This document shows positions 6,641-18,690 of a DNA stretch of 44,050 bases, one piece after another. The notes under the pieces are model-generated. The model was given only the letters and a program-made list of their open reading frames with translations. It did no database searches and was not told the DNA's origin. The DNA lies in NCBI GenBank assembly GCA_902630465.1, contig CACOVJ010000008.1:1-44050 (forward strand), given 5' to 3'. The DNA is from an uncultured Alphaproteobacteria bacterium. Its GTDB lineage: Bacteria > Pseudomonadota > Alphaproteobacteria > HIMB59 > GCA-002718135. Position 1 is the first letter of the stretch; the number at the start of each line of letters is the position of its first letter. The position numbers and the translations under genes are program-made.

Positions 6641-7120
6641 TTAAATTTTATATTCAAAATTCTGAGTTGTTGGATTGATTTTTATTAGTCTTGCACCATT
6701 TCTAATGTGATAATGAGTTGCTACAGGCGTTAAAGGTGAAATAGTTATAATACTTTCAAACTGTTTTTTTGATTTAATATATTTTTGAAGCTCTTTCATA
6801 ATTTTTTTACCAGCACCTTTTTTAAAAGACCATAAAGTATATGCAATGGGAATTGATGCCTCTCCTTCTTCAACACTCATTAGATCCATTTCTTTTATGG
6901 TAGCTGGAATTTCTTTTGTAAAAGCAAAGCACGCTACACCTTCAATATCATCTTTATATTTGAGACCAAAAATTTTTCTTCCCTTAGCTTTTCTAAAGTC
7001 GTTATCTAATTCTGGTCTTACAGGGTCATCTTCTGGATTAACACTATCTAGCTCCACTAGCTCAGTTTTTTTAATCCAGCTAAAAAAATCAAAATCATAT
7101 TTATATTTGCCGATTTGCAT
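6641..7120 (-). CDS. Putative GNAT-like acetyltransferase
   Basis: A 159-residue soluble protein with no signal peptide. It has a weak GNAT look: a mid-protein strand around GVACFAFTKE, then IAYTLWSFKKGAGKKIMKELQKYI (about 93-115), which resembles the acetyl-CoA-binding loop and helix, and a C-terminal HYHIRNGARLIK segment (about 136-147) like the last strand-turn of GNAT folds. No substrate can be named. An alternative is a stand-alone member of an uncharacterised family with the same fold. The ATG at 7120 has no clear ribosome binding site. It converges on mutY with no intergenic base. Confidence 0.5.
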   Translation of the reverse strand: MQIGKYKYDFDFFSWIKKTELVELDSVNPEDDPVRPELDNDFRKAKGRKIFGLKYKDDIEGVACFAFTKEIPATIKEMDLMSVEEGEASIPIAYTLWSFKKGAGKKIMKELQKYIKSKKQFESIITISPLTPVATHYHIRNGARLIKINPTTQNFEYKI

Positions 7121-7221: not shown

Positions 7222-7638
7222 TTAATCTACTAATTTTAAATTTTTAATTTGGGAATAAATATCTCCATCATTTACAAATTCACATAATCCCTTTGGAAAC
7301 ATTTCTCTTGTTGTAAAACCACCACCTGTCATTGTCCAGACATCAACTCTCAGAGTGTTTAGTTCAATAGAATAGACCCTGTCTCTAATATTATTTTCAC
7401 TTTTGAATATATTAATAAAGGATAGCTCTAAATCAGTAACATAAGAATATTCATTGGTTGACGTTTTCTTATTTAAATCTGTTTTAATCACTCTGACTCT
7501 ATCGGAGGAAATAAATTCTACTCCCCATAATAGCTTAGGGCATAGTAATTGTTTATTTGTTAAATCTTTATTTGTTAAAGTTAAAGCTGGTAACGAAAAA
7601 AAATATGAAAATATAAGAATTAGTAATACTTTATTCAT
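7222..7638 (-). CDS. Hypothetical secreted protein
   Basis: Not recognised. The 138-residue product begins with a signal peptide-like stretch (about 1-20, MNKVLLILIFSYFFSLPALT) and is otherwise a small soluble domain with alternating hydrophobic residues that suggests beta structure (VEFISSDRVRVI, YSIELNTLRVDVWTMTGGGF). Two cysteines (in LLCPKLL and GLCEFV) could form one disulfide. It lies 15 nt downstream of the rhodanese gene on the same strand and may be co-transcribed with it. A periplasmic location is inferred from the signal peptide only. Confidence 0.6.
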   Translation of the reverse strand: MNKVLLILIFSYFFSLPALTLTNKDLTNKQLLCPKLLWGVEFISSDRVRVIKTDLNKKTSTNEYSYVTDLELSFINIFKSENNIRDRVYSIELNTLRVDVWTMTGGGFTTREMFPKGLCEFVNDGDIYSQIKNLKLVD

Positions 7639-7653
7639 ATTGCTTATAATTAA

Positions 7654-8019
7654 TTATTTTTTAATTTTTTCCCATTCTGCCATACCACCAGTAATATTTT
7701 TAACATTTTTAATACCCATGTCTTGCATTGTTTTAGTTGCTAAAGTTCCTTGTCCACCTACTCCACAAAATACAACATATTCTTTGTCTGGATTATTTTT
7801 AAAAAAATCATTTTCTAAAGGACTGCCTTCCGCTAAATAAAATTCAAGAAATGCCTTATCCAAATGCATTGCATTCCCAATAGTTTCTCTTTCAAAACTC
7901 TCTTTATCTCTAACATCTATGAATTGAACATTTGGATCACTGATCTTTTCTTTTGCTTCTTCAGCAGTAATGTTTTTAATTTCATTTTTAATACTCATTA
8001 AGTCTTCAAATTTTTTCAT
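7654..8019 (-). CDS. Single-domain rhodanese-like sulfurtransferase
   Basis: A 121-residue cytoplasmic single rhodanese domain, expected to carry sulfane sulfur on its active-site cysteine. The strand-helix core begins with ITAEEAKEKI. The Asp-Val-Arg signature (FIDVRDKESF) is at about 33-42, and the catalytic loop starts at Cys85 (CGVGGQG). The C-terminal signature NITGGMAEW is at about 107-115. Loop length fits thiosulfate-type rhodaneses rather than phosphatases. AAGGA lies about 7 nt before the ATG, which supports the start. It is the most upstream of the small minus-strand genes and diverges from the boxA leader unit. Confidence 0.9.
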   Translation of the reverse strand: MKKFEDLMSIKNEIKNITAEEAKEKISDPNVQFIDVRDKESFERETIGNAMHLDKAFLEFYLAEGSPLENDFFKNNPDKEYVVFCGVGGQGTLATKTMQDMGIKNVKNITGGMAEWEKIKK

Positions 8020-8225: not shown

Positions 8226-8255
8226 TTGAAATTAAGGAATCTCATAAATTAATAT
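8226..8255 (+). promoter_or_regulatory. Predicted sigma-70 promoter of the boxA leader RNA
   Basis: A -35 element TTGAAA at 8226-8231 and a -10 element TAATAT at 8250-8255 are separated by 18 nt. A start site near 8262 would put the first transcribed bases just before the boxA sequence. The same TTGAAA plus A/T-rich -10 pattern recurs upstream of the small RNA at 18603 and of tRNA-Arg. In AT-rich DNA such matches arise by chance, but here the match leads straight into a boxA, a strong ribosome binding site and a terminator. Confidence 0.55.
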
Positions 8256-8263
8256 TGTTATCG

Positions 8264-8275
8264 TGCTCTTTAACA
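8264..8275 (+). promoter_or_regulatory. boxA antitermination element
   Basis: The 12 bases TGCTCTTTAACA match the E. coli ribosomal RNA leader boxA exactly. In RNA, boxA binds NusB with ribosomal protein S10 and nucleates an antitermination complex. In the E. coli suhB leader a boxA next to the Shine-Dalgarno represses translation. Here boxA sits 2 nt upstream of AAGGAG and no rRNA gene follows in the window. Its place at the very start of a predicted transcript makes chance less likely. Confidence 0.65.
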
Positions 8276-8291
8276 AAAAGGAGTTACAAAA

Positions 8292-8312
8292 ATGAATCCG
8301 CCAACACTTTAA
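8292..8312 (+). CDS. Six-residue leader peptide MNPPTL (putative)
   Basis: ATG at 8292 opens six sense codons, Met-Asn-Pro-Pro-Thr-Leu, closed by TAA. AAGGAG (8278-8283) lies 8 nt upstream, one of the best Shine-Dalgarno and spacer combinations in a window where many genes lack one. The consecutive prolines right after the start are a context in which ribosomes pause and need EF-P. The terminator lies about 90 nt downstream, so translation could influence folding or termination. A chance ORF of this size is common; the strong ribosome binding site is the reason to list it. Confidence 0.4.
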   Translation: MNPPTL

Positions 8313-8403
8313 GGGTGGTGTCCACAACCAAAGCCAACTTTGCAAATTAAGCAGACCTTTTTTTAAAAGGCCTCGCATTAGGTGATGAGCCGAATTTATA
8401 AAA

Positions 8404-8426
8404 CCCCCAAACTACGGGGGTTTTTT
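8404..8426 (+). terminator. Intrinsic terminator of the leader RNA
   Basis: A GC-only stem CCCCC (8404-8408) / GGGGG (8416-8420), extendable by flanking AAA/TTT, with a 7-nt loop, is followed by six T (8421-8426). Orientation is plus. It separates the leader unit from the promoter and gene of the secretion exoprotein. Confidence 0.85.
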
Positions 8427-8437
8427 ATTCTGATTTG

Positions 8438-8465
8438 TTGAAATCTTTATTTTGCTCGATATAGT
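8438..8465 (+). promoter_or_regulatory. Predicted promoter of the two-partner secretion operon
   Basis: TTGAAA (8438-8443) and TATAGT (8460-8465) are separated by 16 nt and lie directly downstream of the terminator at 8404-8426. A start near 8472 leaves a leader of about 30 nt before the ATG at 8503. If active, the exoprotein operon does not depend on read-through of the boxA leader. Predicted by eye only. Confidence 0.5.
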
Positions 8466-8502: not shown

Positions 8503-11500
8503 ATGAAAAATATTATTAGTTTTTTTATTTCTTTTCTTTTTTTAGGATCTCAATTTTTATATGCGGCAGATCTTCCAAGTGGAGAAAATGTAGTTGCGGG
8601 TAATATTTCCATTAGTTCATCTGATAATGCTATGACCATTACTCAGTCTTCTCAACAGTCTATAATTGAATGGAATAGTTTTGATATTAGTGCGGAAAAT
8701 AGTGTAACTTTTAATCAACCCTCTATTAATGCCAGTGCTTTAAACCGCGTTATCTCAGGTAATCCAACTACACTTGCTGGTTCATTAAATGCCAATGGTA
8801 AAGTTTTTGTGGTGAATGAAAACGGTGTCTACTTTACACCAACATCTACAATTAATGCGCATTCATTTGCTGCGTCCACCCTTGCTTTATCCAATGATGA
8901 TTTTCTTAACAATAAATTATTATTTAAATTAGATGATGTAGATAATATTTTTTCTTCTATTATTCATAAAGGTTCTATTACAACTTTGGATGGAGGTTTT
9001 ACTGCTCTCTTAGGTGGTGCCATTGATAATGAAGGTACACTTAACGCTAATCTTGGTAAAATTGGAATAGGGGCTGGAAAAGAAATTACATTAGACTTGA
9101 GTGGTGATAAATTTTTGCAAGTAAGCATCCCTTTTACTGAAGCTATTACCTTACTCGATCAAAATGCAGAAGAATTAAATACCATTATTAATCATGCAGG
9201 AACATCAACGGCAAATAGAATAGACATTGATGTTGGTGCTGCGAAAAATGTTGTTCAGCGTGCTGTTAACATTCCAGGCAATCTTGTTGCAACTACTGCT
9301 TCACAACAAAACGGTGTCATTACTCTTGGAAGTGGAAGCGATATTGTTGTTGCAGGAAACTTAACGGCAAAAGAGGGCGGCAACATTAGTGTTGAAGGAG
9401 ACTTTTTATCTTTTGGAGGAGCAGTTGATGTATCTGGAACAAATGTAGGTACAATAAATTTAAATAGCACTGGAGAAATTTCATTAGGAGGAACTTTAAA
9501 TTCTTCTTCTACTAGCAATGATGGTGGTGATATAAGTATTAAATCTCAGTACAAAATTGTTCAAAGTTACGGCAGTGAAATTAGTTCATCAGGAAATACC
9601 AATGGTGGTGATATTCATTTATCCGCACCAAATATTATGTCTTCCGGTTCAGTTTCCGCAAAAGGCAATCAAAAAGGTGGATATATAGACATAGAATCTG
9701 AGGGATATATTCGTTTATTATCTTCCAAGATTGATGTTGCAGGTATTAACCAGGGTGGTTTAGTGCGTATAGGGGGAGAATTTCAAGGCAATAATAACTT
9801 AACAAGAACTGCAGAACAGCAAGAGGTTTTTGTTGATAGATGGAATGAAAGACAATCACTTTCAAATGCGAAAACAGTTTTAGTCTCCGATGGTACTAGC
9901 ATCGATATATCATCTTCAAATGGGAAAGCAGGTACTGCAATTATTTGGAGTGATCAAGAAACAACAATGCTTGGTAATATTCATGCAACAGGAACAACAG
10001 GTGGCGCAGTTGAGATTTCTTCCAAAGATACCTTACGCCATGTGGGATTATCAAATGTTAATATATCAGAAGGTGGTCATTTATTACTTGATCCAAAAAA
10101 TATAACTGTTGGAACAGGTGTAACATCTCAAAACTGGATCTATCGAGGTCTGATTGGACATGATTATATAGTGGCATCAACAAATAATGTTGGTGAAGGA
10201 AACTTGGAAAAAAATGATCATTTTGGATCAGATGTTACGATTAGTGATGATGCTACTTTAATGGCGGTTGGTGCAAGACACGGTGATGGATCTTCAAATT
10301 CAAGTCAAGATTCTGGAGAAGTATATTTGTATAAATTTGATGATGGTGATTTTACGAATGCCACACTAATGGGTCGAATAGGAAAAGGTTATACTGGAGG
10401 TAAAAATATTAATGTAAATACTCTAGGTAAAGCTGATAAATTTGGCCGTTCATTATCTTTTAATAGCGATGGTACTCGATTAGCTGTTGGTGCATCAGGA
10501 GACAGTGGAGCAGTTAGCAATAATTTGACCAATGCAGGTGTAGTTTACCTTATCACCTTTGATGATACTTCTTACTCAAATGGGCAAGTAGTAGGAAGAA
10601 TTGGTCACAGATATACTTCAATGGATAAAGACGTTAACTTAGCCAAACAGGGCAATATTAATGGCAGGAAAGGTGGACCAGTAATTAGCGATTATGATTT
10701 ATTTGGTATGGGTGTAGCTCTTGATGGTGATGCCGATGTTTTAGCTGTTGGATTATATGGTGATAATGGTTGGGAGAGAAGAGGAAAAGGTTCTGTTAAC
10801 ACACTAGATAATACAGGTTCAGTTTACATGATTAGTTTTGATGACTCTGATTTTACTGGAGGAAAAGTAGTTTCACGTATTGGTTATGGTTATAGATATA
10901 AAGTTGGAGGGTGTGTTGATAAAGGTACATGTGCAACATTCGAAAATGATTACAATACACGATTGGGAGGCTGGACACCAAGAGTAGATGATAAACTTGG
11001 TAAATCAGTATCTTTAAACCATGATGGTTCTTTATTAGCTATAGGTAATGAACTTAACGATGGTAATGATAGTTCTCTTGTAGCAAGTACAAATAGAGAT
11101 TCTGGAGCAGTCCATTTATTTAAATTTGTTGATGGTAATGGAGATCTTATTTCAGGAGCATCAGGAGCGCCAACATATGTTGGAACAATTGGAGAAGGTT
11201 ATGACTATTTAGATACAAGCAGTTCATCAGAAAAAAGTGATAAATTTGGAAACTCAGTAGCATTTGATAAAGATGCAGATCGTTTAGTTGTTGGATTTTA
11301 TGATCAAACACAAGCTTCAGGCTCTAAAAGAAAGCCAGGAGCTGTAAACTTATATACTTTAACGAGTAATCTTGCATCAGCAACATTAGTTGGAACAATA
11401 GGAAACGGATATAGTGGAGGTAAAAATTTTAATATTGGTTCTTCCATTGAAGCAAAGGATATTTATGGAGAAGGTGTCGATTTAAATGAGACGGGTAGTC

Positions 11501-13821
11501 GTCTTGTTGTTTCAGGAATGTATGCCGATGGTAATAGTAATGGAAAATCTAACAGTGGAGAGGTCATGCTAATTAAGTTTACTGATGACAATTTTTCAGG
11601 GGGATCTCGTTATGCAAATATTGGATCTGGTTATGGTAGTGCAGGAGGTAATTCATTAGATATTGATGCTAATCTCGATAATAGTGATAAGTTTGGTCGC
11701 GCTGTATCATTAGACAGTGATGGTGATAGATTGGCTGTTGCAACATCTGAAGATGATGGGAATGGAGGAAGCAATTCTAATGCTGGCGCAGTTCATTTAT
11801 TTACATTTGATGATACTAATTTCTCCAATCCAACACTTAAAGGGACTATTGGAAAAGGTTATTCAGGAGATTATAGTTTAGATTTAAGTAGTTTAGGTGA
11901 TGGAGATAAAGTGTGGCGAGTAGCTCTTGATGGGGATGCAGATAGATTAGTTTTATCTCAACAACTAGCTGAGTCAGGTGGTGTTGACTCAGGATCAGTT
12001 TATACAATAAAATTTGATGATACAAACTTTACAAATCCAACACATGTTGGAACTATTGGAAAAAGTTTTAATTCATCAACTCATGATTTATCAATTGCTA
12101 ACTTAGGATCAGGTGATGCATTTACCTCTGTAGCTTTGACAGATGATGGATCACGTCTTGTTGTTGGAGCAATAAAGGATGATGGATCTGATAATAGTAG
12201 CTCAAATGCAGGAGCTGTTTATTTAATTACATTTGATCAAACAACAAACAGTGATGGTAATGCTTCAACAGATTTTAACAATCCTACACATGTAGGAACA
12301 ATTGGAGTAGGTTACTCAGGCACTAAGAGTTTAGACATAGGATCAGGTGCAACTAACGAACTTTTGGATAATAATGATCAGTTTGCAAACTCACTTGCAT
12401 TAACAAAAGATGGAAAGATTTTAGCTGTTAGTTCAACAAATGATGATGGAGCGAACGGAACTACTTCTGATAAAGGAGCGGTGCATTTATTTACTTTTGA
12501 TGACTCAGATTTTACTAATCCAAAATATGAAGCATCAATAGGGAATAATTACACAGGTGGTAAAAATTATGACACATCAGGAATTTCTGATTGGGGAGTT
12601 GCCCAGGTAGCTATTGATGGTGATGGAAATAGATTAGCAACGGGTGATTTCAATGACGGTGATATTCGAATATTTGGATTTGAAGATACTTCCTTAAATG
12701 AAGCAAGTCTGCAATTTACTATTGGTTTTGACCAGTCAGGAACTAATTCAGTAGATATTAGTGACCATGGATTTGAAGATGGTGATACTTTTCCAAATTA
12801 CATTGCATTAGACGATACTGGAACTTTAATGGCTGCAGGATCTACACTTGATGATGGTCTTAGTAATGGTGCTACAAATACAGGAGCAGTATATTTATGG
12901 TCTGATACTATCATCAGAGGGGCTACCTCGTACACAGATTTTTCAAGTGATGACGTGGTCATTAATAAAACTGAATTAGAGGAATTTCTAAATAACGGGG
13001 TGGATGTAACCCTTCAGGCAAATACTGATATTACTATTGACTCTGCCATAACAGTTACAGGAACAGGAAATTTGAATCTTCATGCTGGCAGAGATGTTAA
13101 TATTAATAGCAATATTAATACAGCAGCCAATTTAGGTATTATTGCAAGTGATACAGATAACAATAATGTTTCTGATAGTGATAGAGATTCTGGTGAAGCA
13201 GATATTGATGCAAGTTCAGCAAGTTTAACAGCATCAGATCTCAATATTGAACTCCTAGATGGAGGTACTCTTACTAATGCGAGTATGGGGGATATTAATC
13301 TCTCTACAGTCACAGCTACAACTGGATCTTTAATGTCTGCTAATTTTTCAGTTTCTGGTTCTAGTGCGGATAATAAAACTTATGATGGAACAACAACAGC
13401 TACGGTTAGTGGTGGCACTATATCAGGATTAAATTTAACTGGTTCTGATCTTGCTATAAGTTCTTCCGGTAGTTTCTTAGATCCAGATGTAGGTGACAAT
13501 AAAAATGTACCAATTAATTATGAACTATCAGGATTTACATCAAGTTCTATTTCAATAGATGATAGTAATGGATCATTAGAATCACTTCCAACTGCAAATA
13601 TAACAGCTGGTGCTTCCACACCTCCACTTCCAGGTGTTGCTCCTGATGAAGAAAAAGAAAAAATTGTTGTACGGGAAAAAATAAATAAGGATGTTTTTGA
13701 TGATGTATCGCGAATAATATCTTTTATCTCTGTTGATGGTGCATCCAATGCAGCATTAATTCAAAATGAATTCATTACGTCATTTCCTCAAGTCGATGCT
13801 CTAAGTATTCAGCGTCTATAA
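8503..13821 (+). CDS. Two-partner secretion exoprotein (TpsA) with FG-GAP-like repeats and a YDG domain
   Basis: A large exported protein of 1,772 residues, probably a surface-bound or released adhesin-like filament. The ATG at 8503 is preferred to an upstream TTG at 8452 because it directly begins a signal peptide (1-21, ending LYA). A haemagglutinin activity / TPS domain follows (about 24-150), with the GNPTTLAGSLNANGKVFVVN core and ENGVYF. Glycine-rich beta-helix repeats continue to about 550 and end in LLLDPKNITVG. About 555-1470 is an array of roughly 12 FG-GAP-like units. A YDG domain ([13 protein letters not shown], near 1622-1690) lies close to the C-terminus, after which a charged linker leads to the end. 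Its stop directly abuts the ATG of the transporter gene. Ligand and host surface are unknown. Confidence 0.92.
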   Translation: MKNIISFFISFLFLGSQFLYAADLPSGENVVAGNISISSSDNAMTITQSSQQSIIEWNSFDISAENSVTFNQPSINASALNRVISGNPTTLAGSLNANGKVFVVNENGVYFTPTSTINAHSFAASTLALSNDDFLNNKLLFKLDDVDNIFSSIIHKGSITTLDGGFTALLGGAIDNEGTLNANLGKIGIGAGKEITLDLSGDKFLQVSIPFTEAITLLDQNAEELNTIINHAGTSTANRIDIDVGAAKNVVQRAVNIPGNLVATTASQQNGVITLGSGSDIVVAGNLTAKEGGNISVEGDFLSFGGAVDVSGTNVGTINLNSTGEISLGGTLNSSSTSNDGGDISIKSQYKIVQSYGSEISSSGNTNGGDIHLSAPNIMSSGSVSAKGNQKGGYIDIESEGYIRLLSSKIDVAGINQGGLVRIGGEFQGNNNLTRTAEQQEVFVDRWNERQSLSNAKTVLVSDGTSIDISSSNGKAGTAIIWSDQETTMLGNIHATGTTGGAVEISSKDTLRHVGLSNVNISEGGHLLLDPKNITVGTGVTSQNWIYRGLIGHDYIVASTNNVGEGNLEKNDHFGSDVTISDDATLMAVGARHGDGSSNSSQDSGEVYLYKFDDGDFTNATLMGRIGKGYTGGKNINVNTLGKADKFGRSLSFNSDGTRLAVGASGDSGAVSNNLTNAGVVYLITFDDTSYSNGQVVGRIGHRYTSMDKDVNLAKQGNINGRKGGPVISDYDLFGMGVALDGDADVLAVGLYGDNGWERRGKGSVNTLDNTGSVYMISFDDSDFTGGKVVSRIGYGYRYKVGGCVDKGTCATFENDYNTRLGGWTPRVDDKLGKSVSLNHDGSLLAIGNELNDGNDSSLVASTNRDSGAVHLFKFVDGNGDLISGASGAPTYVGTIGEGYDYLDTSSSSEKSDKFGNSVAFDKDADRLVVGFYDQTQASGSKRKPGAVNLYTLTSNLASATLVGTIGNGYSGGKNFNIGSSIEAKDIYGEGVDLNETGSRLVVSGMYADGNSNGKSNSGEVMLIKFTDDNFSGGSRYANIGSGYGSAGGNSLDIDANLDNSDKFGRAVSLDSDGDRLAVATSEDDGNGGSNSNAGAVHLFTFDDTNFSNPTLKGTIGKGYSGDYSLDLSSLGDGDKVWRVALDGDADRLVLSQQLAESGGVDSGSVYTIKFDDTNFTNPTHVGTIGKSFNSSTHDLSIANLGSGDAFTSVALTDDGSRLVVGAIKDDGSDNSSSNAGAVYLITFDQTTNSDGNASTDFNNPTHVGTIGVGYSGTKSLDIGSGATNELLDNNDQFANSLALTKDGKILAVSSTNDDGANGTTSDKGAVHLFTFDDSDFTNPKYEASIGNNYTGGKNYDTSGISDWGVAQVAIDGDGNRLATGDFNDGDIRIFGFEDTSLNEASLQFTIGFDQSGTNSVDISDHGFEDGDTFPNYIALDDTGTLMAAGSTLDDGLSNGATNTGAVYLWSDTIIRGATSYTDFSSDDVVINKTELEEFLNNGVDVTLQANTDITIDSAITVTGTGNLNLHAGRDVNINSNINTAANLGIIASDTDNNNVSDSDRDSGEADIDASSASLTASDLNIELLDGGTLTNASMGDINLSTVTATTGSLMSANFSVSGSSADNKTYDGTTTATVSGGTISGLNLTGSDLAISSSGSFLDPDVGDNKNVPINYELSGFTSSSISIDDSNGSLESLPTANITAGASTPPLPGVAPDEEKEKIVVREKINKDVFDDVSRIISFISVDGASNAALIQNEFITSFPQVDALSIQRL
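10165..12915 (+). repeat. Protein-level array of about 12 FG-GAP-like repeats inside TpsA
   Basis: About 12 units of 60-100 residues (mean near 76) follow the plan: D-K-F-G-x-S-V-x-L, then D-x-D-G-x-R-L-A-V-G, D-D-G with a Ser/Asn-rich loop, G-A-V-Y/H-L-F-T-F-D-D-T/S-x-F, and a closing G-T-I-G-K-G-Y. The closing motif is recognisable at 11 junctions (for example GRIGKGY, GTIGEGY, GTIGNGY, GTIGKGY). The Asp-rich turns (DSDGDR, DGDADR, DGDGNR) resemble calcium-binding loops. The units suggest beta-propeller blades of the FG-GAP type. They differ enough in DNA sequence that recent duplication is unlikely. Unit 4 has an insertion with two cysteines. Confidence 0.85.
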
Positions 13822-15504
13822 ATGAGATATATTTTTTCTTTATTTTTCTTTATCACTACGTCATTAACTACATTTCCATCTTATACAGATACTGGAAATT
13901 ATATTGTTTATGAAACAGGTCTCATTGTTCCTCCTGGAGCAGAAAATATTTCTTTTAATTTTGTTGGAATAGAAATTGATAATGAAATTGAAGACATGAT
14001 TGAACTCCGAAAGAACTTATTTAAATCAAAAAAATTTAAAACAATAAGTTTAAAAGATTTTTACAATCTCTTAATAGCCTTGGAACAATTATATGTTTTG
14101 AATGGATACTTTTTAACCCGTTTTATTGTGCCACCGCAAACAATTGAACAAAATACTAAGATTAAAGCTATTGTTTTTCCTGGTAAAATTGAGTCAGTTG
14201 ATTATTCTCAGTTAGATAAGCGTATTTCAAAGCCTATCAAAAATTATTTCCAAAAATTAATTGATATAAAAGGCTTAGAATATCCTATCATTGAAAAATC
14301 AATTATTAAATCTAGAGAACTACCAGGAGTAGAGTTGGAGACCACTATTAAAGCTGGTGAAGAGCCAGGTACATCATCTCTTCAACTTAATGCAGAACAT
14401 GATTTGGTCAGTGGTTATCTCACTTATTCTAATGGATTATCAGAAACAGCAGGAAAAGATCAGTTTACTTCTTATTATAGTCTTAATAGTCCATTTGGTT
14501 ATGGTGAAAATATCTATGCAGCATATGTTTTAGACCCAGAAAATAGTGTGCGTGTTCCAATTGATCAAACAGAAATAATTAAACGAACAGATTTTAGAGA
14601 TGCATATCTTGTTGGTGGTAAAGTTCCCATTCTTGCATCTGATTTTTCTATATTTGGTGCCATTAATGAATCTTATTCTGAGCCAAATGGCTTAGAAAAA
14701 AAAGGTGAATTTAAACAAATAAATTTTGGAGTTGAATATCAACTCAAAAATACGCGCTTAGTGAAGAATAATATTTTGCTTGATTGGCAATGGATTAGAG
14801 AAAGAGAATATTCAACTCTTTCTTACTATACTACTGATACATTTAATGATGAATATAATGCACTAGAGTTAAAATATATAACAACAAATTTATCTTTTTT
14901 GGATTCTTTTTCCCTTAAAGGCAACTCTTCTCTAAAGTTTGGCACACCAATGTATACAAATAAAACATCAGAAACAAATACACCTTCTCGTGTTGGCTCA
15001 ACCTTAAATTTCATTAAATGGAATGGTGATATAAATTTAAATAGGCAAATACTTAGAGACTACTCACTTAATACAAGATTTGTTTTTCAAAAACTTGTGA
15101 GTGATCGAGGTTTAGTTAATTCTGAACAAATTAATATCACAGGTCCTGGTCAAATATCTGGGTTTGAGTCAGGTAATATGTCTGGTGACCAAGGATTTTT
15201 TTTTAGAGGTGATTTCGGTAGATCTTTCTATCCATTTATTGACAATCAAGATGATAAAAAAGAAGATTCTATTCGCATAGAACCATACATTCATCTAAGT
15301 GTTGGTGCTACCTACTATAAAAGACCAGCCTCAGGTGAATTTAGTCGAGTAGAAGCTGCAAGTGGTGGGTATGGAATTAAAATAAAAATTCCTCTTAGTT
15401 CAAATAATCTTGATATAAATTTTGAAGTAGCTGAGGCTGACAAAAGTGTGAAAGGAACTACTTCTAGTCCAGTTTATTTATTTAATACAACATTTTCATT
15501 CTAA
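13822..15504 (+). CDS. Two-partner secretion outer-membrane transporter (TpsB, ShlB/FhaC family)
   Basis: Omp85-superfamily pore that moves the partner exoprotein across the outer membrane. The 560 residues include a signal peptide (about 1-22) and two POTRA domains (about 30-190; the first includes the LYVLNGYFLTRFIVPPQ segment typical of POTRA_2). A C-terminal beta-barrel follows (about 195-560), ending in a strand that closes with Phe (NTTFSF). The loop-6 motif, VRGF/Y in FhaC relatives, reads Ile-Ser-Gly-Phe at 445-448, so the conserved arginine is serine. The following MSGDQGFFFRGDF block is conserved. It starts at the base after the tpsA stop codon, so coupling is certain in layout if not proven. 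Confidence 0.93.
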   Translation: MRYIFSLFFFITTSLTTFPSYTDTGNYIVYETGLIVPPGAENISFNFVGIEIDNEIEDMIELRKNLFKSKKFKTISLKDFYNLLIALEQLYVLNGYFLTRFIVPPQTIEQNTKIKAIVFPGKIESVDYSQLDKRISKPIKNYFQKLIDIKGLEYPIIEKSIIKSRELPGVELETTIKAGEEPGTSSLQLNAEHDLVSGYLTYSNGLSETAGKDQFTSYYSLNSPFGYGENIYAAYVLDPENSVRVPIDQTEIIKRTDFRDAYLVGGKVPILASDFSIFGAINESYSEPNGLEKKGEFKQINFGVEYQLKNTRLVKNNILLDWQWIREREYSTLSYYTTDTFNDEYNALELKYITTNLSFLDSFSLKGNSSLKFGTPMYTNKTSETNTPSRVGSTLNFIKWNGDINLNRQILRDYSLNTRFVFQKLVSDRGLVNSEQINITGPGQISGFESGNMSGDQGFFFRGDFGRSFYPFIDNQDDKKEDSIRIEPYIHLSVGATYYKRPASGEFSRVEAASGGYGIKIKIPLSSNNLDINFEVAEADKSVKGTTSSPVYLFNTTFSF

Positions 15505-15510
15505 AATTTT

Positions 15511-16830
15511 ATGTTAAAGATACAATTAATAATGAAATTTTTTATTCTTATTATTCTTAAAATTATATTTTTCTATTCAAACATTGTTAGTGCTGAAGTT
15601 AAAGTAGCTGGACTTTATGCTGAAAGTGGACCGGTTAGTGAAATTGCAGAAGCAATTGCAGAAGCAAAAAGGGTTGTTGTTGAAACCATTAATGCTGATG
15701 GAATAGGTATTGTGGGTAGAGGACTTATTAAGATAGATAAAGTTGATACAGCTTGCGATCCTGCAAAGGCCAAAACAAATTTAAGAGAATATTTGAAAAA
15801 AAATGAGCCTGAAATTCTTTTAGGTCCTACTTGCTCTACAAGTGCAGCTCGTATAATTCAAGACATAACCATTCCAAAAAAAATACTAACTATATCTTCA
15901 TCGGCTAGTTATCCATTATTATCAAGTATTGAAGATAATGATTTATTCTTTAGGACCATACCTTCTGATATTCAACAATCAACTTCTATTGCTAACTATC
16001 TTATTTCAAAAAATATTAGGCAAATAATATTGTTATACGGTGATGATAATTACAATTCAACTCTTGCTCAGAATTTTCTAAAGGTCTTTACAGAGGAAGG
16101 TGGTATAGTTCTTTTTAATACTTTGCTCACAGATAAAACTGTTATTAATCAAAGTTTTATAAATACTTTTGTTGATATTGCGATTGATAATGATCAACCA
16201 GGATTAGTTATGTTTCTTCATGGTAATGAAAGAACTGTGAATTTACTAGAACAATTTACAAATACAGTATTGATTAGATTACAAGAATTACAAACTTCGA
16301 ATATTTTTAAACATCAATATGGTTCAGATAGTATGTTGACTAATGAAGTAAAAGATTTGATTTATTCTTACATACCAATTCAATTACACGAAAGAACAAC
16401 AATTGTTGCACAGGCTACCTCACAAAGTTCCGAAGAGTTCCAAAGTTATGCTAATATTATGTTAAATTCTGGTGTTGATCCCAACTCACCTTATTCAGCA
16501 ATAAGTTTTGATACTATGATGCTAGCAGCATTGGCCTTACAACACCAAGCACATAATAACTATTCTAAAGATGATTTATCAAAAAGTTTAGTTAGTGTTG
16601 CCAATCCCCCTGGCATAACTGTAGGTCCTGGTAGTTGGGAGTCTGCAAGAGCATTATTATTAAGAGGCATTGAAATAAATTATGAAGGAGTATCTGGGTC
16701 TCTTGATTTTGATATTAATGGGGATGTAGAGGGTTTATATTCTTTAAATCAAGTCACAGAAGATAATTTATGGAGTGTTGAGCCTCTTGAAAAACTTCAT
16801 CCTTTTGAGCCAAGAATTATAATTGAATAA
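15511..16830 (+). CDS. Periplasmic ligand-binding protein of the branched-chain amino acid (Peripla_BP_6) type
   Basis: A 439-residue type I periplasmic binding fold like LivJ and related receptors. A signal peptide ends near VSA (about residue 28) with no lipobox cysteine, so a soluble periplasmic protein is expected. The opening strand VKVAGLYAESGPVSE, the GPTCSTSAARII loop and ISSSASYPLLS, then FFRTIPSDIQQSTSIANYL and the GDDNYNSTLAQNF hinge region, follow the family order. No permease or ATPase gene is nearby, so it is an orphan receptor. It starts 6 nt after tpsB; an alternative ATG at 15532 would also give a good signal peptide. It overlaps the next gene by 8 nt. The ligand cannot be told from sequence. 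Confidence 0.85.
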   Translation: MLKIQLIMKFFILIILKIIFFYSNIVSAEVKVAGLYAESGPVSEIAEAIAEAKRVVVETINADGIGIVGRGLIKIDKVDTACDPAKAKTNLREYLKKNEPEILLGPTCSTSAARIIQDITIPKKILTISSSASYPLLSSIEDNDLFFRTIPSDIQQSTSIANYLISKNIRQIILLYGDDNYNSTLAQNFLKVFTEEGGIVLFNTLLTDKTVINQSFINTFVDIAIDNDQPGLVMFLHGNERTVNLLEQFTNTVLIRLQELQTSNIFKHQYGSDSMLTNEVKDLIYSYIPIQLHERTTIVAQATSQSSEEFQSYANIMLNSGVDPNSPYSAISFDTMMLAALALQHQAHNNYSKDDLSKSLVSVANPPGITVGPGSWESARALLLRGIEINYEGVSGSLDFDINGDVEGLYSLNQVTEDNLWSVEPLEKLHPFEPRIIIE

Positions 16831-17371
16831 AATTTTTTTTATTATTTTATCTGTAGTATTTTCTTTAATACCTAATATTGCAAAAACAGAACTTATTGAT
16901 ACTCTAAAAGAAAATAACAAATTAATTTTTATTAGACATGCTCTAGCACCAGGAAATGGTGATCCTGATGAATTTAATATTTTAGACTGTAATACACAGC
17001 GAAACTTAGATAGTATAGGTAAAGAGCAATCAGTGAGATTAGGTCAGTATTTCAAAGTTAACAATGTCCCTATCGATGTTGTTTTATCAAGTGAGTGGTG
17101 TCGTTGTAAAGAAACAGCAAAATTAGCGTTTCAAAATTATGAAACATTTAAACCTCTAAATTCTTTTTATGATCCAAAATTTTATAAAAATAAAGAATCT
17201 CAATTGATCAATCTTAAAAAATTTATTAATAATCTTAAAGACGAGGGGAACATAGTTTTTGTCACTCATTATGTTGTAATTGCTGCCATGTTTGGTATTG
17301 GAGTTACTTCAGGGGAAATTTTAATTGCTGATAGAAATCTTAATGTACTAGGGTCTATTGAAGAATACTAA
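16823..17371 (+). CDS. Periplasmic histidine phosphatase family protein
   Basis: A 182-residue branch-1 histidine phosphatase (phosphoglycerate mutase-like). The motif [10 protein letters not shown] holds the catalytic Arg38-His39. A second arginine region ([15 protein letters not shown], about 90-104) and the later [11 protein letters not shown], with the second catalytic histidine, complete the site. A hydrophobic N-terminus (about 3-20) looks like a signal peptide, so it should act in the periplasm on phosphate esters. The start is TTG at 16823, within the end of the binding-protein gene (8-nt overlap), which argues for translational coupling. No ATG gives the signal peptide. Its stop overlaps the stop of ccrM on the other strand. 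Confidence 0.82.
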
Positions 17372-18438
17372 TTAAGTTTGTCTTTACGATAATTGGATCG
17401 TACTTCATCTAGTAAAACGGATCTTGATTTATTTTTAATATGCCAAAAATCCCATCCATTACAGCTTGGAAGACCTTGTATCTTTGCTCCTACCTGGTGA
17501 ATAGAACCTGATAAGTCTTTTATTTTTAGTGTACCATCGATACTAACGGTTGCTTTAAAGCGCTCTTTTTTATCTGTGAGTACAGCACCAGGAGGAATAA
17601 TTCCTTGCTCTACAAGTTCACCAAAAGGAACTTTTGGTAATTCTTTTCTACTTTTTGCAATAGTGACAACATTTTCTTCCAATATTTTTGTTTTCTTTAA
17701 TCTTTCTTTAGAAAGTTTGACATAATCTTTATCTTTTTCAATGCCAATAAAGTTACGTTGTAATTTTTTTGCAACTACTGCTGTGGTTCCTGAACCACAA
17801 AAGGGATCAAAAACTAAATCACCTTTATTAGTTGAGGCCAAAAGAATTCTATAAAGTAAGGCCTCTGGTTTTTGTGTTGGATGAGATCGTTGATTATTAT
17901 TTTTTCGCAATCTTTCTTTTCCTGAGCAAATAGGAATGTACCAGTCACTTCGCATTTGTTTTCCTTCATTTAGCTCTTTCAGGTTCTGGTAGTTGAAAGT
18001 ATATTTTGCTTTACGAGAAGTTGTGCACCAAAGAAGTGTTTCGTGTGCATTTGTAAAACGTGTTCCTCTAAAGTTTGGCATAGGGTTTGTTTTATGCCAA
18101 ATTATATCATTTAAAATCCAAAGACCTTTATTTTGAATAGAGGAGCCAACTCGTAAAATATTATGATAGCTTCCTATTACCCATAATGCTCCACCTTTTT
18201 TTAATATTCTTGCACATTCACTAAGCCACTCATTTGTAAACTTATCATATTCTTCATAAGTATTAAATTTATCCCAATCTTGTGTTACTGCCTCTACTGT
18301 CGTTTGATCAGGTCTATACAAAGTGTCTTTAAGTTGAAGATTGTAGGGTGGGTCAGCAAAGATAAGATCAACGGAATGATCTTTCATTTTCTTCATCTCT
18401 TTGATTGAATCTCCTAAAATTATTTGATTTATTTTCAT
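17368..18438 (-). CDS. ccrM: Cell-cycle adenine DNA methyltransferase CcrM (GANTC)
   Basis: N6-adenine methyltransferase of the beta class that methylates GANTC in alphaproteobacteria and links replication to gene expression. Motif IV DPPYNL is at 29-34. The SAM-binding motif [10 protein letters not shown] is at 211-219, after the [15 protein letters not shown] block. The order IV then I is that of beta-class enzymes. A C-terminal domain of about 90 residues (about 265-356, with [21 protein letters not shown]) matches the extra domain of CcrM. The 356-residue length is near the Caulobacter enzyme. Three GANTC sites lie just upstream of the start, so methylation feedback is plausible. It neighbours rnhB, as is common in the class. 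Confidence 0.95.
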
Positions 18439-18544: not shown

Positions 18545-18572
18545 AAAAAAAAGGGGAGTCTAGCGACTCCCC
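18545..18572 (-). terminator. Intrinsic terminator of the small RNA (and possibly of rnhB)
   Basis: Read on the minus strand, an 8-bp perfect stem GGGGAGTC / GACTCCCC with a 4-nt loop (plus 18553-18572) is followed by eight T (18552-18545). It would end both the small RNA and any read-through from the moaB-rnhB genes. Confidence 0.88.
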
Positions 18573-18603
18573 ATAAAATCATCAAATGGGAGGAATGATG
18601 ATT
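18545..18603 (-). ncRNA. Candidate small RNA with an anti-Shine-Dalgarno loop
   Basis: On the minus strand a predicted 59-nt RNA starts at about 18603. A perfect 8-bp stem (AATCATCA / TGATGATT, plus positions 18577-18584 and 18596-18603) displays the loop UUCCUCCCAUU, which is complementary to ribosome binding sites. A 10-nt linker leads to a perfect GC-rich terminator. A near-consensus promoter ends 3 bp upstream of the first base. The layout resembles the alphaproteobacterial small RNAs with CCUCC-type loops (cuckoo/CcsR and alpha-r families), but I cannot place it in a named family. It lies between rnhB and ccrM in a 252-bp gap that holds no protein gene. Confidence 0.68.
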
Positions 18604-18606
18604 AAT

Positions 18607-18636
18607 ATTATATAAGTTTTCAAATATCTATTTCAA
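18607..18636 (-). promoter_or_regulatory. Predicted sigma-70 promoter of the small RNA
   Basis: On the minus strand, TTGAAA (18636-18631) and a perfect TATAAT (18612-18607) are separated by 18 nt. The predicted start falls at about 18603-18601, at the first base of the anti-Shine-Dalgarno hairpin. It is one of the best promoter matches seen in the window. Confidence 0.65.
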
Positions 18637-18690
18637 TTATGTTCAAGCTATAATTATTATGCAATAATTGCATAATAAGAAAATGTGATT

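Follow-up and report, generated by a model that had tools for sequence, protein, structure and literature searches.

The HIMB59/AEGEAN-169 order consists of abundant, streamlined and supposedly free-living bacteria. In one of its genomes (1.02 Mb, 54 contigs, 77% complete; GC 29.5%), the two genes of a two-partner secretion (TPS) system, tpsA and tpsB (here A and B), are followed by a gene for a solute-binding protein (C) and one for a phosphatase (D). This raises the question of what a binding protein and a phosphatase contribute to a secretion system, if they belong to it at all. The accessory genes named in a review of TPS include hxuC, hmw1C, bcpO and cdiC, and a solute-binding protein is not among them (PMC5422565). 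Our literature search found no published link between HIMB59 and two-partner secretion. We analysed a window of 44,050 nt, by which we mean the whole stretch of DNA under study; in the genome collection compared, its nearest relatives are marine single-cell genomes named AG-/AH-.

Re-checking of the open reading frames reproduced the order and coordinates of the four genes exactly, all on the plus strand (Table 1), together with the junctions described in the first-pass annotation: 0 nt between A and B, a gap of 6 nt between B and C and an overlap of 8 nt between C and D. Because about 27 related loci show the same junctions, the arrangement is not due to chance. Export signals of the products were judged by eye from the sequence, and all Pfam domain matches in the four proteins exceed the curated cut-offs. 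A terminator scan detected no strong terminators between the operon genes. Upstream of A, a candidate promoter matches the consensus at 10 of 12 positions, in a scan that gave no more than the chance number of hits, and its sequence is identical in two related loci (L033 and L034). Promoter and terminator patterns would fit a single transcript starting at about 8470, scans of this kind being weak.

Table 1. Features of the TPS locus and its flanks (positions in the window).
Feature	Position	Strand	Basis or remark
Left flank: conserved 159-aa protein, function not assigned	6641..7120	-	operon-bearing and operon-less g1 loci
Small-RNA-like element at the left edge of the slot	8236..8432	+	6-codon ORF MNPPTL and intrinsic terminator
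Candidate operon promoter, TTGAAA-16-TATAGT	8438..8465	+	38 nt before the tpsA ATG
A = tpsA, TPS exoprotein	8503..13821	+	ORF; 1772 aa
Hypervariable FG-GAP/beta-propeller section of A	10144..12900	+	sliding identity, 26 orthologues
B = tpsB, outer-membrane transporter	13822..15504	+	ORF; 560 aa
C = periplasmic HAAT/Liv-type substrate-binding protein	15511..16830	+	ORF; 439 aa
D = exported branch-1 histidine phosphatase, optional rider	16823..17371	+	ORF; 182 aa, TTG start
Right flank: CcrM-type DNA methyltransferase	17368..18438	-	synteny, g1 group and sister family

The locus is a three-gene core, A-B-C, plus one optional gene, D. Across 28 loci of one genus, A, B and C occur in fixed order with near-fixed junctions. 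At contig ends, A is missing or cut in two loci (L044, L055), and a third (L059) ends within C. Of the 61 close genomes, 8 contain B, these 8 also contain C, and neither gene ever occurs alone; in the wider order, B was found in 29 of 162 genomes, all belonging to this one genus of seven. The first-pass annotation had proposed to check whether the third and fourth gene co-occur with this TpsA subtype. Within the genus, C co-occurs perfectly with this type of TpsA/TpsB, and D does not: it is present in 16, absent from 10 and broken in 1 of the 27 judgeable loci, so that the complete four-gene order is limited to the window and 15 further loci. Of the four-gene unit claimed originally, A-B-C remains as the conserved core and D has to be taken out as optional.

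In the loci lacking D, the stop codon of C runs directly into the methyltransferase gene, or a rhodanese or small-protein gene sits in its place. Of the 24 genomes examined from the sister family f2, 21 have a homologue with 45-50% identity to D that stands alone in an unrelated neighbourhood, with no link to TPS, and B is absent from all of these. The view that the phosphatase is a functional part of the operon is not supported, given its frequent loss in the genus and its solitary occurrence in the sister family. D itself matches Pfam His_Phos_1 (PF00300, 28.2 bits) and contains the motifs IRHA, SSEWCRC and VTHY, which align with those of a homologue and provide the RH motif, second arginine and second histidine of branch-1 histidine phosphatases. 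Matches of D to PRK06193-type models stayed below the cut-off, and a sequence search of the PDB with D returned no match.

One locus is particularly informative about the coherence of the remaining three genes. In L034, A, B and C are close to their counterparts in the window (dS 0.15, 0.16 and 0.39, respectively) and D is absent. The methyltransferase, moaB and transglycosylase genes flanking them belong to the other clade: they differ from those of the window with a dS of 1.1-1.9 and from those of that clade with a dS of only 0.3-0.8, except for the outlying moaB of L043. A, B and C thus changed their chromosomal background together and without D, and this co-transfer is the best single argument for C belonging with A and B. 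Pairwise omega values, calculated roughly by the Nei-Gojobori method with some dS values near saturation, were 0.02-0.09 for C, 0.06-0.16 for B, 0.09-0.27 for D and 0.19-0.46 for A. By these estimates, C is the most constrained of the four genes.

The secretion pair shows the features of type Vb systems. B is a ShlB/FhaC-type transporter with a POTRA domain (POTRA_2 PF08479, 24.7 bits) and a ShlB barrel (PF03865, 59.8 bits), the family signature of 16-stranded barrels. The N-terminus of A carries the TPS secretion domain (residues 24-281; Pfam PF05860, 88.4 bits with a cut-off of 33.5; NCBIfam TIGR01901, 66 bits). The motif of this domain that usually reads NPNG is NENG in A (residues 104-108), with Pfam and NCBIfam scores far above the cut-off. 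Further matches are FG-GAP_2 (105 bits), with about 12 repeats at residues ~570-1460, and YDG (33 bits), followed by a conserved C-terminal tail.

Among 26 orthologues of A, the mean pairwise identity drops to 62-72% in residues 551-1430, compared with 84-93% in residues 111-550 and the C-terminal part (84-87% for the C-terminal parts taken separately). A is also mosaic: the B proteins of L035 and L037 are identical, and their A proteins are just 79% identical. We modelled the first six of the about 12 repeats (residues 548-1010; pLDDT 81, pTM 0.89) and obtained four-stranded blades. Foldseek placed integrin alpha heads at the top (E about 1e-9, with TM-scores of just 0.4-0.5) and VIA-align gave Z values of 19-24 against several beta-propellers (NHL domains, integrin alpha, TolB). 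On the basis of these blades and matches, the variable section is predicted with good confidence to fold as a beta-propeller. Structure alone does not single out the nearest propeller family; the FG-GAP_2 match comes from the sequence. A sequence search of the PDB with the whole propeller section gave no match. Compared with the propeller of integrin alpha, with which A shares the FG-GAP_2 repeat family and the predicted fold, the repeats of A sit on a TPS-secreted stem and number about 12.

A contact-dependent inhibition system of the CdiBA type, which has a hypervariable C-terminal toxin and an immunity gene, was rejected, since the C-terminus of A is conserved, the variation is internal (FG-GAP), and an immunity-like gene 3' of A is absent. 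About half of the operon loci contain a second tpsA in tandem directly upstream of A (L118:6507-10232, L119, L120, L132/L133), and genome G003 apparently has three. The tandem copies possess the same kind of C-terminal tail and have one tpsB in common, and the upstream copy (A1-type) is without FG-GAP repeats. A much longer TpsA, which many relatives seemed to encode, was rejected for this reason: the extra matches belong to the second tandem gene.

C is a member of the fold family of HAAT/Liv substrate-binding proteins (ANF_receptor PF01094, 92 bits; Peripla_BP_6 PF13458, 71 bits), and the profile of its family aligns over the full length with the leucine-specific binding protein 1USG. Its true start is probably the second methionine at 15535, because M8-K9 is nearly invariant even in distant relatives. 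Residues S109, S133, Y181 and D273 of C align with S79, T102, Y150 and E226 of LivJ/LivK (1Z15, 1USG), which we take to be the residues binding the alpha-amino and carboxylate groups; all four, including the exchanges of Thr to Ser and Glu to Asp, are invariant in 17 orthologues. Judged by this alignment, C keeps an amino-acid-binding signature and not a phosphate-ester one. It differs from LivJ and LivK and from transport homologues in a lineage-specific insertion in the second lobe and a C-terminal extension, and the region of LivJ Tyr202 is altered (LHGNE), so its specificity may differ. A structural model based on the 17 orthologues (85-93% identity) reached a pLDDT of 40.

The genes surrounding C differ from those of its relatives as well. 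The closest relatives elsewhere in the class (29-32% identity) lie, wherever the neighbourhood is readable, in livHMGF operons with permease and ATPase genes; one is located on a short contig without them. None of the A-B-C loci encodes a cognate permease and ATPase, and to this extent the first-pass description of an orphan binding protein is correct. However, complete LivHMGF systems are present elsewhere in the operon-bearing genomes, where the single C paralogue of the genus (25-28% identical) adjoins livM, livH, livF and livG, and C is therefore not necessarily an orphan. In Escherichia coli, LivJ and LivK use one common permease. By analogy, C could use the shared LivHMGF permease of the genome. 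C stays constant although the head of A varies, and thus cannot track a changing ligand of A; its conservation would imply a small ligand that is always the same, whatever the target of A.

To place the gene set in a broader context, we searched 385 genomes of Alphaproteobacteria for the ShlB family and found strong matches in 67. In about 90 TpsB neighbourhoods across the class, a limited sample (60 extending about 5 kb to either side, the rest about 1.5 kb or taken as whole stretches), no C-like or D-like protein was detected; as a positive control, 6 of 6 known binding proteins were recovered. This search for pairings of TPS with a binding protein was centred on Alphaproteobacteria, with other phyla hardly covered. 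A close parallel is HxuCBA, the haem-haemopexin system of Haemophilus influenzae, which likewise combines a TPS pair with a third gene for nutrient uptake in one operon; its exoprotein frees a nutrient and its receptor imports that same nutrient (PMC5422565, PMC4873976). HxuC, however, is a TonB-dependent haem receptor of the outer membrane, whereas C is a soluble periplasmic binding protein of the amino-acid type. As the operon contains no TonB-dependent outer-membrane receptor, it can only work like HxuCBA. HMW1ABC/EtpABC and BcpAIOB are likewise TPS operons with a constant accessory gene, but there the accessory product is a cytoplasmic glycosyltransferase or a small lipoprotein or cytoplasmic protein, in contrast to the solute-binding protein described here.

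The operon occupies a chromosomal slot whose right border is formed by the methyltransferase gene, followed by rnhB, moaB and a lytic transglycosylase gene (slt). The left border is mutY or the gene of the 159-aa protein, often with a MATE exporter. In the sister family, mutY adjoins the methyltransferase gene directly, which we take as the empty site. We inspected 16 operon-less loci of the g1 group: ten carry a classical autotransporter (type Va) with beta-propeller-like repeats, Big_5 and an autotransporter barrel in the slot, three have the MATE gene only, either by itself or beside small genes, a different gene content was seen in one, and the last two, which are more divergent, lack even the MATE gene. 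Autotransporters of this kind were noted in L076-L085 and L087 (e.g. L085:7744-10161). TPS operon and autotransporter were never seen together among the loci inspected. Replacement flexible genomic islands of HIMB59 and SAR11 similarly hold alternative gene sets of equivalent role at the same position (PMC10734472). The alternatives here differ in being type Va and type Vb secretion of beta-propeller surface proteins, and the text of the island paper is without haemagglutinin, adhesin or secretion system (PMC10734472). The slot offers a clean natural experiment, in which type Va and type Vb systems present beta-propeller heads at one address.

We tentatively favour the explanation that the locus is a replaceable type Vb surface-display cassette in which C serves as a periplasmic receptor, with the shared Liv permease as its probable partner. 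A would reach the cell surface through B, and its propeller head or heads may there bind a variable partner such as a particle, an alga, another cell or a polymer. C would reside in the periplasm and bind an amino acid or a comparable small molecule, the same in all strains, for delivery to the LivHMGF permease, whose genes lie at another place in the genome; this role of C we infer. Cells would thus express attachment together with the uptake of a nutrient encountered on contact, following a logic similar to that of HxuCBA, and D, where present, would be an exported phosphatase riding along. A direct coupling of contact and feeding, in which the heads of A tether or strip amino-acid-containing material, C feeds LivHMGF and strains of a dominant ocean bacterium swap the whole set against autotransporters that display other propellers, we consider unlikely. 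A functional link between A and C would add, next to the haem system, another route by which two-partner secretion is coupled to nutrient uptake, in this case through the periplasm. The linkage of A-B-C hints that adhesion and feeding may be connected. That a conserved and exchanged adhesin operon brings along a solute receptor suggests that some members of the population make a living from physical contact.

That C is just an ordinary additional Liv-type binding protein in a block-exchanged segment, functionally unconnected with A and B, appears somewhat improbable. The locus is indeed an exchange slot in which unrelated genes ride, as D demonstrates, and with A-B-C found in no more than one genus, a single founding event could explain the linkage. 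Yet C was never lost in any locus, whereas D was lost many times, purifying selection is strongest on C among the four genes, and the 6-9-nt junctions are fixed in all loci. A protein that has given up transport and serves A instead, as a periplasmic assembly factor or as a quality-control or sensor protein gating or reporting TpsA export, would account for the missing permease beside C, in contrast to its relatives, and for the insertion and C-terminal extension absent from transport homologues, and TPS accessory proteins such as BcpO and HMW1C are known (PMC5422565). We doubt this reading, because C retains the amino-acid-binding signature, the genome encodes a complete Liv permease, and the other TpsB neighbourhoods indicate that TPS export needs no such protein. 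Least probable by far is the original proposal of a phosphorylated nutrient that is sensed or released through the combined action of filament, binding protein and phosphatase. The four-gene order recurs, as described above, and phosphate-related flexible islands exist in the HIMB59 order (PMC10734472), but the idea loses its basis with a phosphatase that 11 of 27 loci lack or carry in broken form and that mostly stands alone, in an unrelated context, in the sister family, and C shows an amino-acid-type binding signature.

Several smaller elements were observed in and around the slot. Genes for a rhodanese and small exported proteins are mobile within it; in the window they lie left of the operon (7222-8019, minus strand), and in L037, L042, L047, L049, L055 and L057 right of C or D. 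The small-RNA-like element at the left edge comprises a ribosome-binding site, the 6-codon ORF, a structured stretch and a terminator at 8400-8424 (fold z = -2.0), and is conserved in L033, L034, G003 and the operon-less genome G028. We rejected it as a riboswitch or leader of the operon: an Rfam search of the element gave no match, it precedes a terminator with a separate promoter-like site downstream, and its presence in G028 shows that it is not operon-specific. Between rnhB and the methyltransferase gene (18545-18642, minus strand), a clear terminator hairpin coincides with an Rfam match to AniS of 29.3 bits (gathering threshold 50), which is probably due to chance or merely to the terminator. 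In another alphaproteobacterial family (L114, L116), two TpsB genes flank the mnmE-gidA-rsmG-parAB cluster, next to the region of replication and partition, and at least one of them has a TpsA as its neighbour.
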